Shown in pieces: positions 8,619-21,283 of a stretch of 64,000 nucleotides of DNA. This stretch comes from Catellatospora bangladeshensis (GTDB taxonomy: Bacteria > Actinomycetota > Actinomycetes > Mycobacteriales > Micromonosporaceae): assembly GCF_016862575.1 (NCBI RefSeq), contig NZ_BONF01000031.1:62001-126000 (forward strand). Reading direction: 5' to 3'. The translations under genes and the position numbers were made by a program. Below the pieces are notes generated by a model, which was not told the origin of the DNA, did not search any database, and saw only the letters and a program-made list of their open reading frames with translations. The stretch's first letter is position 1; every line of letters begins with the position of its first letter.

Positions 8619-8679
8619 GATCGCGAGTTCGTGTCACAACCTGCGGTTGGAGCGCACTTCGTGACACGAACCAGCGATC
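8619..8679. repeat. GATC-bounded 61-bp palindromic element, family G, copy 1
   Basis: The arms are GATCGCGAGTTCGTGTCA and TGACACGAACCAGCGATC. Exact 61-bp copies in length occur at 18961, 19331 and 49386. This copy lies between the rnpB start and the TSUP gene start. Confidence 0.88.
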
Positions 8680-18031: not shown

Positions 18032-18103
18032 TGGGGTATGGGGTAATTGGCAGCCCAACTGATTCTGGTTCAGTTAGTCTAGGTTCGAGTCCTGGTACCC
18101 CAG
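18032..18103 (+). tRNA. tRNA-Gln (CUG)
   Basis: The 72-nt cloverleaf has acceptor TGGGGTA/TACCCCA, anticodon stem ACTGA/TCAGT around loop TTCTGGT (anticodon CTG), T-arm CTAGG-TTCGAGT-CCTGG and discriminator G. The 3' CCA is not encoded (CAA follows). Confidence 0.93.
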
Positions 18104-18238
18104 CAACCAAGCCTGAACGGGTGAGAGCCCGATTAGCGCGAGGCTGCTGGACCTGCTAAAGTTCAGCAGGCCGCCGAGCTGAGAGATCAGCAAGGCGGTC
18201 GAAAACTGAAGAAGAGATGTTCTCCGGAACGTCGACCT

Positions 18239-18314
18239 GGCCCCGTCGTCTAGCGGCCTAGGACGCCGCCCTCTCAAGGCGGTAGCGAGGGTTCGAATCC
18301 CTTCGGGGCTACCA
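18239..18314 (+). tRNA. tRNA-Glu (CUC)
   Basis: The acceptor GGCCCCG pairs with CGGGGCT. The anticodon stem CCGCC/GGCGG holds loop CTCTCAA (anticodon CTC), and the T-arm is GAGGG-TTCGAAT-CCCTT. Discriminator A is followed by an encoded CCA (18312-18314), unlike the neighbouring tRNA-Gln. Confidence 0.95.
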
Positions 18315-18318
18315 GGTT

Positions 18319-18353
18319 AAAGAAGCGCACGAGCGATGCTCGTGCGCTTCTTT
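18319..18353 (+). terminator. Intrinsic terminator after tRNA-Glu
   Basis: AAAGAAGCGCACGAGC and GCTCGTGCGCTTCTTT form a perfect 16-bp stem with a GAT loop and a T-rich end. It also lies downstream of the minus-strand small gene at 18384. Confidence 0.9.
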
Positions 18354-18383: not shown

Positions 18384-18566
18384 TCAAGGCCGGTACTGCT
18401 CCCAGTCGAACACGGTGGGGTGCACCTCGGTGCCACGCGGGACGCCCCCGTAGAGGTCCTTGGAGGGGTCGAGGGTGCTCCGGTTCCGGCTGCGCCTCGC
18501 CACGATCAGGAGCAGGACGGTGACCAGCGCCGCACCGCCGACCAGAACGCCTAAGAAGATCTCCAT
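18384..18566 (-). CDS. Small single-helix membrane protein, paralog 1
   Basis: The 60-residue protein MEIFLGVLVGGAALVTVLLL continues to IVARRSRNRSTLDPSKDLYGG. It has one transmembrane helix (residues ~3-23), then a conserved RRSRxRSxLDPSxD box and a short polar tail ending FDWEQYRP. It is clearly paralogous to the genes at 18706 and 19077. The start is preceded by TACCCT-CCGGGC-ATG, the same upstream sequence as in both paralogs. Function is unknown; the positive inside box suggests N-out, C-in topology. Confidence 0.72.
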   Translation of the reverse strand: MEIFLGVLVGGAALVTVLLLIVARRSRNRSTLDPSKDLYGGVPRGTEVHPTVFDWEQYRP

Positions 18567-18578
18567 GCCCGGAGGGTA
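18567..18578 (-). promoter_or_regulatory. Conserved -10-like box of small-protein paralog 1
   Basis: TACCCT (minus strand, 18578-18573) is followed by CCGGGC and then the ATG. The same box and spacing precede the paralogs at 18706 and 19077, which supports leaderless transcription. Confidence 0.55.
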
Positions 18579-18693
18579 GCGACGCCCCGCCAGAGCCTAG
18601 GGCGCCGTGCGGCTCGGGGTGGGTCGCCGCGAGCGCGCCAGTGGGCTCGCTCCAGGTGCCCGTGCGGGGCAGCGGAATGTGGCCGGATGCCAC

Positions 18694-18706
18694 TACCCTC
18701 CTGCCA
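18694..18706 (+). promoter_or_regulatory. Conserved -10-like box of small-protein paralog 2
   Basis: CACTACCCTCCTGCC directly precedes ATG 18706. TACCCT occupies 18694-18699 with a six-base spacer. Confidence 0.55.
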
Positions 18707-18906
18707 TGGAATTGCTGGTGGGGACTCTCGTCGTCGTGGCGGTGCTGATCGCCGTCATGGTTTTCATCGTGTCGCGGCGCAGCCGTAGCCGTAGCCGCCT
18801 CGACCCTTCGCAGGACGGGTACCAGGGCTTTCCCGACCACAAGACGCCAAGCCCCTACGGGACGCCTCACTCGGGCACAGAGAGCAACTCCGGCGGGTCC
18901 TTCTGA
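18706..18906 (+). CDS. Small single-helix membrane protein, paralog 2
   Basis: The 66-residue protein starts MELLVGTLVVVAVLIAVMVF, then IVSRRSRSRSRLDPSQDGYQGFP and a Ser/Gly-rich tail. It shares with paralogs 1 and 3 the ME-xxxG start, one helix, and the RRSRxRSxLDPSxD box. A 61-bp element (18961) follows it, and a similar gene plus element unit repeats about 370 bases downstream. No known domain is seen. Confidence 0.7.
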   Translation: MELLVGTLVVVAVLIAVMVFIVSRRSRSRSRLDPSQDGYQGFPDHKTPSPYGTPHSGTESNSGGSF

Positions 18907-18960
18907 AGCTGCCAGCCCGACGGCGGCTTCGGGCGGCGCCGTCGTGGCTGGATGACCGAA

Positions 18961-19021
18961 GATCGCTACCTCGTGTCAGAACCCGTGGTTGGGCCTGAGT
19001 TTTCGACACGAAACAGTGATC
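18961..19021. repeat. GATC-bounded 61-bp palindromic element, family G, copy 2
   Basis: It begins GATCGCTACCTCGTGTCAGA and ends TCGACACGAAACAGTGATC. It has the same length and orientation as copy 3 at 19331, exactly 370 bases away. Confidence 0.87.
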
Positions 19022-19064
19022 TTCGCGGGCCGGTCCGGGGCTGTGGGAGGTGGCCTGGGGGCAC

Positions 19065-19077
19065 TACCCTCCGGCCA
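19065..19077 (+). promoter_or_regulatory. Conserved -10-like box of small-protein paralog 3
   Basis: GCACTACCCTCCGGCC directly precedes ATG 19077. TACCCT occupies 19065-19070 with a six-base spacer. Confidence 0.55.
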
Positions 19078-19268
19078 TGGAAGTACTGGTAGGCATGTTC
19101 GCCGTCACGGCGGTGCTGATCGCCGCCATGTTGCTCATCGTGTCCCGGCGCAGTCGCAGCCGCAGCACCCTCGACCCTTCCCGGGATCTCCACCAGGGTT
19201 TCCCGGACGACAAGAACCCCAGCTCGGTGGGCGGGCATCTGGTCGATACCCCGGGGTCGAACTTCTGA
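19077..19268 (+). CDS. Small single-helix membrane protein, paralog 3
   Basis: The 63-residue protein starts MEVLVGMFAVTAVLIAAMLL, then IVSRRSRSRSTLDPSRDLHQGFP and a short tail ending TPGSNF. It is the third member of the local family and is bracketed by direct 61-bp elements at 18961 and 19331. Similarity to paralog 2 is highest from residue 1 to about 46 and falls off in the tail, which suggests constraint on helix plus basic box. Confidence 0.72.
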   Translation: MEVLVGMFAVTAVLIAAMLLIVSRRSRSRSTLDPSRDLHQGFPDDKNPSSVGGHLVDTPGSNF

Positions 19269-19330
19269 CGAGCCGGTCGGCTTCAGAAGGCGCGCTTCCC
19301 GGGTGGCCGGGTCGGTGTCGGCGGTGGGGA

Positions 19331-19391
19331 GATCGCTGCTCCGTGTCAGAACCTGCGGTGAGGCCTGAGGTTCCGACACGAAGCAGCGATC
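19331..19391. repeat. GATC-bounded 61-bp palindromic element, family G, copy 3
   Basis: It begins GATCGCTGCTCCGTGTCAGA and ends CCGACACGAAGCAGCGATC. It lies between paralog 3 and the convergent DUF3352 gene. Confidence 0.87.
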
Positions 19392-19410: not shown

Positions 19411-21201
19411 TCAGCGCATGATCAGGCGGATGACCCCGGTCTGGTCACCGCCGTCGCTGCCCTGCAGCACCGCGAGCGCCTCGAACGGCAGCCGCTCGCG
19501 CTGGTCCTGTGGCAGCAGGTTCGCCAGGTCCAGGTAGACCGCGAGGTCCGTGCCCGCGGGCGCGCCGGCGACGGCCTGCTGGAACGTGGGCCGCTCGGCG
19601 AGGGTGCCGCTGCCGGGGGTGTAGCCCGCGGTGGTGGCGGTGACCACGTTCCCGGCGGTGGTGGTGGTCAGACCGCCCTTCGGACCGGCGGTGGGCCCGG
19701 CGAGACCGCCCCCGAGCAGGTCGGCGAGGCGGCCGGCGCCAGCGGCGTCCCGCGCCTCGGCGGTGACCCGGACCGCCGGGTCCTGCCCCTGCCCGAAGCG
19801 GGCGGCCACGCTCACCGCAGCGCCGTCGAGCGCCGCGAACATGCCGAACGGATCGGTCATGCTGCCCGCCCCCTCGGGACCGTCCAGGCCGCCCTGGTCG
19901 GTCAGCACGCCCTCGGGCAGGCCCATCAGCTCCTCGGCCCGCCTGGCCTCGGCCTCGGTGAGCTCCTCCGGGTCCTTGCTGAGCAGGCGGGCCAGCTCCT
20001 TCTGCTCGGCCTTGGTGAGGTCCGGCCCGAGGGACTCCGGCTCGCCCGGTCCGGGCGTGGGCCCGTTCTCCAGCTCCTCGAGCGCGGACAGGTCGACCTC
20101 CTCGCCCGCGGTCGCGGTCGCCATCGCCTGCATCATGACGAGCCCGAGGACGGCCTGGTAGGGCGAGGTCACCGTGTTCGCCTGGGCGGCCAGGCCCTGG
20201 GGCAGCCGCGCCACTACGCCGACGTTCGTGTCGCCGGGCAGGGCGCCGAGCTTCGCCACGGCGTCGTGGGCGGCCGGGGCCGGGGTCTGCGCACCGAACG
20301 TGCGGTAGCGGGCCTCCAGGCCGGTTCCAGTGGCCCGTACGCCCACGATCAGGCGGCCCTGCGCCTTCGGGGTGCCGCCGAGCACCTCCTGCTGCTCGGC
20401 CTCGGTCATCCCGGCGCGCAGCCCGGCGGTGGTGACCTCCTGGTAGGCCGCCAGGTCGGCCCAGATCACGGCGAGCTGGTCGCCCTCCAGCCACGCCCGG
20501 TCGGCGGCGAACGGCTGGGCCTCGGCCAGCGGGGCCCGCTGGGCCTCGGCGAAGGCGCGGTCGGCGGCGCGCTGGCCGTCCTTCTCGCCGATCGCGACGA
20601 GCACCACGCCGTCGCGGGCCACGAAGCCGAGGCTGGCGTCCTTGACGCCGTCCCGGAGGCGGGTCAGGCCGGTGCCCGCCTTGCCGCTGTCCGTGCTCGC
20701 GGCGGTGATCAGCACGTACGGCTGCCCGCCGTCGAGCCACATCGCGATCCCGGCCCGGCGGCCGAGCCAGCTCAGGACGTCGCGGTCCACGTCGACGCCG
20801 TCGAGGCCGATGCGCTTCAGCAACTCGCCGAGGGCCTCGTCGCGCTGCCGCGCCCCGTCGCCGTCGGCGCGGGGCGCCTTCTGCGCCAGCCGGAACAGCT
20901 TCAGCTGCTGCTCCAGGCCGGTTTCCAGGTCGATCGTGGCGAACAGCCCGGCGGAGGCCGGGACGAGCTCCTCGGCGCGGCGGCCGTCGCCGAAGGCGAA
21001 GCGGTAGACCGCGTACGCGCCCACGCCGAGCAGCAGCACGACGGCCACGACCGAGGCGAGGATCAGCGGGAGCGGGCGGCGCCGGGCGGGTGCGGGCGCG
21101 GTGTCGGCGTACGGGTCGCGGTCGAGCGAGATGACGGTCTCGGGCGCGGACACGGCGGCGCCGGTGGACGGATCGTCCACCGGCGCCTGAGGGTCTGCCA
21201 T
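19411..21201 (-). CDS. DUF3352 membrane-anchored protein
   Basis: The 596-residue protein has a Pro-rich cytoplasmic start, one helix (PLPLILASVVAVVLLLGVGAYAVYRF, ~residues 45-70) and a long exported domain. The beginning AEELVPASAGLFATIDL is the usual opening of DUF3352 proteins (PADTLAYVxLDL-like). A tail near residue 560 (GTDLAVYLDLANLL) repeats that strand. A low-complexity Glu-rich stretch (LSALEELENG...) interrupts the domain around residue 375. Function is unknown. The ATG at 21201 has AAGGAA upstream; the longer start at 21255 looks non-coding. Confidence 0.8.
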   Translation of the reverse strand: MADPQAPVDDPSTGAAVSAPETVISLDRDPYADTAPAPARRRPLPLILASVVAVVLLLGVGAYAVYRFAFGDGRRAEELVPASAGLFATIDLETGLEQQLKLFRLAQKAPRADGDGARQRDEALGELLKRIGLDGVDVDRDVLSWLGRRAGIAMWLDGGQPYVLITAASTDSGKAGTGLTRLRDGVKDASLGFVARDGVVLVAIGEKDGQRAADRAFAEAQRAPLAEAQPFAADRAWLEGDQLAVIWADLAAYQEVTTAGLRAGMTEAEQQEVLGGTPKAQGRLIVGVRATGTGLEARYRTFGAQTPAPAAHDAVAKLGALPGDTNVGVVARLPQGLAAQANTVTSPYQAVLGLVMMQAMATATAGEEVDLSALEELENGPTPGPGEPESLGPDLTKAEQKELARLLSKDPEELTEAEARRAEELMGLPEGVLTDQGGLDGPEGAGSMTDPFGMFAALDGAAVSVAARFGQGQDPAVRVTAEARDAAGAGRLADLLGGGLAGPTAGPKGGLTTTTAGNVVTATTAGYTPGSGTLAERPTFQQAVAGAPAGTDLAVYLDLANLLPQDQRERLPFEALAVLQGSDGGDQTGVIRLIMR

Positions 21202-21283
21202 GAGGGTTCCTTTCCCCGTTGAAGATCGGCGCTCATGGTAGGGGCCGTCAACCACGACGCTCAGCGGGGGAAGGGTCAGCTGT

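Follow-up and report, generated by a model that had tools for sequence, protein, structure and literature searches.

Behind a tRNA-Gln and tRNA-Glu gene pair of Catellatospora bangladeshensis lie three short open reading frames which, judged from their substitution pattern, are genes under purifying selection. We suggest that they belong to an undescribed and apparently Catellatospora-restricted family of single-pass microproteins of 55–70 amino acids, that these proteins would be translated from leaderless mRNAs and would act as accessory partners at the membrane, and that the dispersed palindromes between the genes are placed independently of them. To this reading as a whole we give about an even chance of being correct.

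Three small membrane protein genes and their relatives in Catellatospora

The window, by which we mean the whole stretch of 64,000 nucleotides that was analysed, carries a tRNA-Gln(CTG) gene at 18032..18104(+), which anchors the locus in 11/11 genomes of the genus, and a tRNA-Glu(CTC) gene at 18239..18314(+) as a second anchor. Gene 1 (18384..18566, minus strand, 60 amino acids) is divergent from gene 2 (18706..18906, plus strand, 66 amino acids) and gene 3 (19077..19268, plus strand, 63 amino acids). When the frames are extended to an upstream GTG, they comprise 99 amino acids for gene 2 and 72 for gene 3. All three proteins begin with ME, continue with one hydrophobic helix and share the motif RRSRxRSxLDPSxD, which confirms the initial annotation in its view that these are three paralogous small membrane proteins. 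A protein search of the 8.83 Mb assembly with gene 3 gave five places, and only the three window genes had E values below 0.1.

The same three genes are present in the relative G006, where order and orientation are kept behind the same tRNA pair; the orthologs of genes 1, 2 and 3 are found at L050:4300-4482(-), L050:4713-4925(+) and L050:5101-5292(+). By the method of Nei and Gojobori, dN/dS of these ortholog pairs is 0.191 for gene 1, 0.285 for gene 2 and 0.153 for gene 3. Over all 17 computed pairs, the ratio ranges from 0.10 to 0.73, and the high values belong to pairs of paralogs or diverged copies and to a single pair of close orthologs: 0.69 for n004 and n005, 0.73 for gene 3 of the window and G005, and 0.51 for the close orthologs of G005 and G001, which differ by 10 changes in total. 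In the alignment of the window locus to the G006 locus, the coding parts are better aligned than the spacers. Shortness, restricted distribution and lack of a curated family could still speak for chance frames or remnants of genes. Against this stand the ratios of 0.15–0.29 in the three ortholog pairs and of 0.10–0.48 for five pairs within the MEW subtype described below, as well as the conservation of starts, boxes and layout. Given the ortholog ratios and the better alignment of the coding parts we reject this explanation as highly improbable, and the earlier proposal that the frames are genes stands.

The family comprises 21 members in our set. Each has one strong hydrophobic stretch at the N-terminus (KD19 of at least 2.64) and an RR at residue 21–24; of the eight residues that begin with this RR, three to five are basic. 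AlphaFold2, run with an alignment of eight rows, predicts a single helix from residue 2 to 28 and gives the tail low confidence, with block means of pLDDT of at most 56 from residue 31 on. According to the positive-inside rule, the N-terminus would be outside and the basic tail of ∼40 residues would be cytosolic; the tail is probably disordered. Bacterial small single-pass membrane microproteins as a class have the same length, one helix and a short charged tail. The present family differs from the known representatives of this class in that it reaches no described family at curated cut-offs: with Pfam and NCBIfam 0/21 members score over the cut-off in the scans that list scores, in line with the statement of the initial annotation that no described family matches. 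Most likely these small proteins would assist or regulate some protein of the membrane or envelope, to which they may dock by way of the conserved stretch that follows the helix, RRSRxRSxLDPSxDxYxG.

The initial annotation had called for homologs in relatives, and these are found throughout most of the genus. A profile built from the three window proteins alone has matches in 8/11 genus genomes (E≤0.001). With a profile of 20 rows, members are found in 9/11 genomes, each with a best E value of at most 4.8e-23, where the profile itself includes members from those nine genomes; in the other two, G007 and G008, this profile found no family member. Within Catellatospora the family falls into three subtypes, which we call RRSR, MEW and NPP. 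The RRSR type, to which the window genes belong, is found beside the tRNA genes: the window genome and G006 have three copies apiece there, G005 and G001 one copy apiece; G006 has one further copy away from the tRNA genes (L059). The MEW subtype, with the sequence MEWLL...DVYFGDREPRPPHG, occupies a second conserved locus in G001–G005 and G010 (L083–L087 and L057). The NPP subtype has the motif RRGKRHGxxNPPxxYYxG and adjoins tRNA-Glu in G005, G004, G010, G003 and G002, and in G009 it is found elsewhere, away from tRNA-Glu (L109:3883-4071(+)). The five genes beside tRNA-Glu, listed without regard to the order of the genomes, are L101:4736-4918(-), L102:591-788(+), L103:550-729(+), L051:5664-5843(+) and L108:99-281(+). 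The match at base 99 of L077 is a true member of the NPP type. For the NPP gene of G002 the contig begins at that place, and the assembly of G002 appears to be broken between tRNA-Glu (L107, contig C123) and the small gene (L108, contig C41). In profile comparisons NPP scores 95.6% against RRSR and 96.4% against MEW, a likeness which indicates that the subtypes belong together. The tree of the members is weakly resolved, as only 2/18 inner branches are starred and a long-branch warning was given.

Outside the genus we found lookalikes and no clear member when the best 20–25 candidates per genome were scored. With candidates scored in this way, the best match in 250 genomes of the taxonomic family has an E value of 6.9e-5, and among 298 genomes of the order the own genome alone falls below 1e-4, in a sample which evidently included no other family-positive Catellatospora genome. 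Eleven places with weak matches were inspected (L068, which is the same place as L147, L069, L071, L072, L121, L122, L126, L129, L149, L161 and L163), and most of them have long or stop-broken frames or are devoid of the motif; the Streptomyces match L088 likewise has a stop-broken frame and is without the helix. L129 and L122, both from other genera, are short frames that combine a helix with basic residues and with YFG or YYSG but lack a TANNNT before the start. L071, from another genus as well, has a helix, RRDRNR and a TAGCGT 7 nt before an ATG and is without DxYxG. These three may be distant relatives of the family. Because of them, and as only the best candidates were scored, the restriction of the family to Catellatospora is likely but unproven. 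Among the Catellatospora literature listed we found no paper on these microproteins.

The genes next to the family members differ between the loci and do not suggest a role. In the window, gene 3 is convergent with a DUF3352-like gene at 19411-21255(-), which scores 26.0 bits at a cut-off of 26.8, and DUF3352-like homologs are present in the loci of five of the ten genomes read. At the second locus, that of the MEW subtype, a DUF6000-type gene and one resembling beta-ketoacyl synthase III are each near in 5/6 loci read, with the neighbour names taken from one species. A search for the same tRNA genes matched 59/61 genomes, and 27 loci of other genera were read; within ∼1.2–1.5 kb downstream of the tRNA genes these loci have no leaderless small membrane gene. 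The sole hit proved to be the beginning of a neighbouring regulator gene, which we take to be of the IclR type.

The TANNNT box upstream of the genes

Each of the three window genes has the sequence TACCCT, then six bases and then ATG, exactly as the initial annotation had reported. The boxes are located at 18573..18578(-) for gene 1, 18694..18699(+) for gene 2 and 19065..19070(+) for gene 3. In the family as a whole the box takes the forms TACCCT, TACCGT, TACTCT, TAGCCT, TAGCGT and TATCGT, which have only TA...T in common, and the distance from TANNNT to the start is 6, 7 or 8 nt in 9, 6 and 6 of the 21 members, respectively, at a background rate of 0.00056 per position. Two members, n003 and n004, were first picked by a scan which demanded the box; the other 19 were found without that demand. 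The shared upstream box of the earlier description is thus confirmed for the three window genes, and as TANNNT it extends to all members. It is nevertheless not private to the family but the usual TANNNT at leaderless spacing.

The spacing is in wide use in this genome, as seen in a sample of 861 kb of the 8.83 Mb assembly (the window and 40 further stretches). A TANNNT followed by an ATG with 60 open codons occurs 42 times at 6 nt (the three window genes included) and 49 times at 7 nt, compared to a median of 6 over spacings from 0 to 30. With GTG starts there are 41 and 32 cases at 6 and 7 nt versus 11 in the same 861 kb. The control codon CAT also peaks, at 5–6 nt; since ATG often has a C in front of it, we take these to be the sites already counted. 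There is little excess at 8 nt, with 13 cases versus a median of 9 for any ATG and eight versus six for open frames.

Leaderless genes with TANNNT are described as common in actinobacteria (PMC3160421, PMC3898074). According to PMC3160421 they average 19.2% across 86 actinobacterial genomes, and TANNNT lies ∼12 bp upstream of the start at leaderless genes. In PMC3898074, TANNNT is given for 73% of the primary transcription starts, with no conserved −35 element. The genes described here resemble these in having TANNNT, in the absence of a −35 match at the window genes in a promoter scan that demanded one, and in a spacing of 6–7 nt, which is found in 15/21 family members and is 6 nt for all window genes. 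They differ in the NPP subtype, where the spacing is 8 nt. In addition, no Shine–Dalgarno sequence is visible between box and ATG. On this sequence evidence the box is best read as the TANNNT −10 element of leaderless genes. Each gene would then be a single-gene unit, with the −10 element so near to the ATG that transcription would start at or next to it, and the spacing predicts a leaderless mRNA from each gene.

Relation to known protein families

Size, the single helix and the basic segment of the proteins, together with the tandem and divergent copies of their genes, would also fit small hydrophobic toxins, either of type I or holin-like, which have a helix and a charged tail, are present in multiple copies and harm the membrane when overproduced. 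Type I toxins typically have an antisense RNA and a structured leader. The predicted leader length of the microprotein genes is near zero, and a leaderless mRNA has no structured leader. Moreover, PADLOC and PHROGs gave no convincing match for 20 members (best E values 0.0089 and 0.038, one member each, in collections to which no curated cut-off of the Pfam or NCBIfam sort was applied), and no relatives were found for gene 2 in phage or plasmid records nor for the MEW alignment in viral contigs. Thus, we regard toxins as unlikely. An accessory single-helix subunit of a respiratory complex, either descended from the cytochrome oxidase subunit CtaJ or an analogue of it, is brought to mind by two NPP-type members, L109 with 18.6 bits and L108 with 15.6 bits, which resemble the NCBIfam model of CtaJ over most of their own length. 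In addition, the best PDB match of profile A6 is CtaJ (8hcr_I, E 0.32, positions 1–26), and the NPP profile matches the CtaJ of the genus itself with 58% probability over 47 columns. This likeness over ∼50 positions is weak and extends over more than the helix. Against this, the scores fall far short of the 43 bits set as cut-off (NF050118), the PDB match vanishes with profiles A5 and A3, and the MEW and RRSR subtypes show no likeness (3.2% and 0.4%), the latter being the subtype of the window, of whose proteins 0/3 match the NCBIfam model. As a separate CtaJ scores over the cut-off in 11/11 genus genomes, in the window genome on contig G000:C43, the microproteins are not CtaJ itself, and we consider a respiratory subunit of this kind quite improbable.

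Secreted bacteriocins or signal peptides, as kin of the YxzE-like putative bacteriocins (PF25184), would have a similar length, and 5/20 members match this model at E≤0.1 with a best value of 2.5e-5 and alignments which span from positions 1–52 up to 1–62 of 65. All five remain below the cut-off (best score 25.6 vs 40 bits), and window genes 1 and 3 have no match even at E≤1. When the helix of the best matcher is shuffled, the match persists in 4/4 cases (E from 4e-5 to 0.01), whereas with a shuffled tail only 1/5 matches (E 0.047). Hence the signal of this protein lies in its tail, and the likeness of the family to PF25184 consists of the length and, for five members, the tail. Kinship to these peptides appears to us very unlikely. 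We keep to the interpretation of the proteins as microproteins that may assist a partner in the membrane or envelope.

The 61-bp palindromes and the duplication of genes 2 and 3

A repeat search of the window aligns gene 2 to gene 3 with 77% identity over 195 bp. The dS between them, 0.79 for the window pair and 0.54 for the pair in G006, exceeds that of the orthologs (0.35–0.46). The substitution counts thus show that the tandem duplication which gave rise to genes 2 and 3 preceded the split from G006, so that this part of the duplication model of the initial annotation is well founded. The tree accordingly pairs gene 3 of the window with gene 3 of G006 (82/91) and gene 1 with gene 1 (96/78), and gene 2 with gene 2 weakly (80/8).

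A palindromic element of 61 bp is found between genes 2 and 3 (18961..19021(+); −33.3 kcal/mol, z −5.6) and again in the spacer that separates gene 3 from the convergent DUF3352-like gene (19331..19391(+); −54.2 kcal/mol, z −9.8). The repeat search aligned both with 73% identity over 93 bp. The element is an imperfect palindrome of two halves with the consensus GATCGCNGNYTCGTGTCNNAANNTGNGG. It is dispersed: the pattern has 82 strand-matches in the assembly, in which many copies match on both strands, versus 0 for the reversed pattern, and there are matches in 7/11 genus genomes and 0/50 others. One further copy is located in the window at 8619-8679, and at L176:8306-8579 three copies are 105–108 bp apart. 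Being palindromic, present in many copies and mainly between genes, the element resembles REPs. It differs in being longer, as REPs are given as 20–40 bp in PMC3733652. A Y1 (RAYT-type) transposase (PF01797) was not found in the window genome or in G010, both of which have many copies of the element; there is one in G006, which has many copies as well, and one to three in each of G001–G005, which have few or none. Thus, the transposases do not track the copy number.

With a looser pattern, 26 copies were found in the 861 kb, 24 of them intergenic: 14 lie between tandem genes, nine between convergent genes and one between divergent genes, one overlaps a gene and one is at an edge. By comparison, spacers of at least 80 bp number 219 tandem, 51 convergent and 112 divergent according to our own gene caller, which missed genes 2 and 3 and labels both window elements as tandem although the one at 19331 is convergent. 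Four copies fold at −30 to −54 kcal/mol. This lean toward 3′ ends and the strong hairpins suggest a role at 3′ ends, and the elements perhaps act as 3′ hairpins. A terminator scan, which requires a run of T, flags neither window element, and Rfam over the window gave the two tRNAs and one match far below the gathering score on the second element. The idea of a hairpin kept by compensatory changes was dropped, as changes in one half are at most positions nearly independent of those in the other; a modest excess of pairing is seen at a few outer positions. In addition, a perfect inverted repeat of 16 bp (18319..18353; −27.7 kcal/mol, z −6.2) separates tRNA-Glu from the 3′ end of gene 1. It is a possible shared terminator of both genes, and the terminator scan did not flag it.

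The initial annotation noted a distance of 371 bp from the start of gene 2 to that of gene 3 and of 370 bp between the two palindromes, which is correct, and inferred that gene and element had apparently been duplicated together. Such a duplication of a unit of ∼371 bp, perhaps through recombination between direct copies of the element and followed by loss of the end copies, would explain the nearly equal spacings. It would also agree with the observation that each of the four element copies in the two species resembles the others best when all are read in the same orientation, and with the 82% identity of the two window elements, a value reached or exceeded by 56 of the 595 pairs formed from sampled elements. 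However, in G006, which has all three genes, the elements are at different places: one precedes gene 2 (L050:4546-4606) and one lies between genes 2 and 3 (L050:4985-5045), and after gene 3 there is no element but two other hairpins. When the two species are compared, the copies in the spacer between genes 2 and 3 share 74% identity, which does not exceed that of random pairs (mean 75%). Furthermore, the distances from stop codon to element are unequal in the window, 54 and 62 nt, and the near equality of 370 and 371 thus rests on compensating length changes. For this one species pair it is shown that the placement of the element changes independently of the genes, so that the joint duplication lacks support and in our view is doubtful. 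An ancestral array of element, gene, element, gene and element may have existed, with different ends lost in the two species.

Frames as short as ∼60 codons readily escape notice or are set aside. In the present case, the position of the −10 box, conservation and the substitution pattern support a family without a curated model, and the same recipe could serve across actinobacteria. We tentatively propose, as a possibility somewhat short of even, that the family is young and was born within the genus, and that units of a leaderless promoter and a membrane microprotein have come to occupy several loci as three subtypes under selection. If this is true, one could watch a new membrane gene family arise and diversify. 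At the locus beside the tRNA genes near relatives differ in gene number and subtype, and this offers a natural comparison for the origin and duplication of orphan genes.
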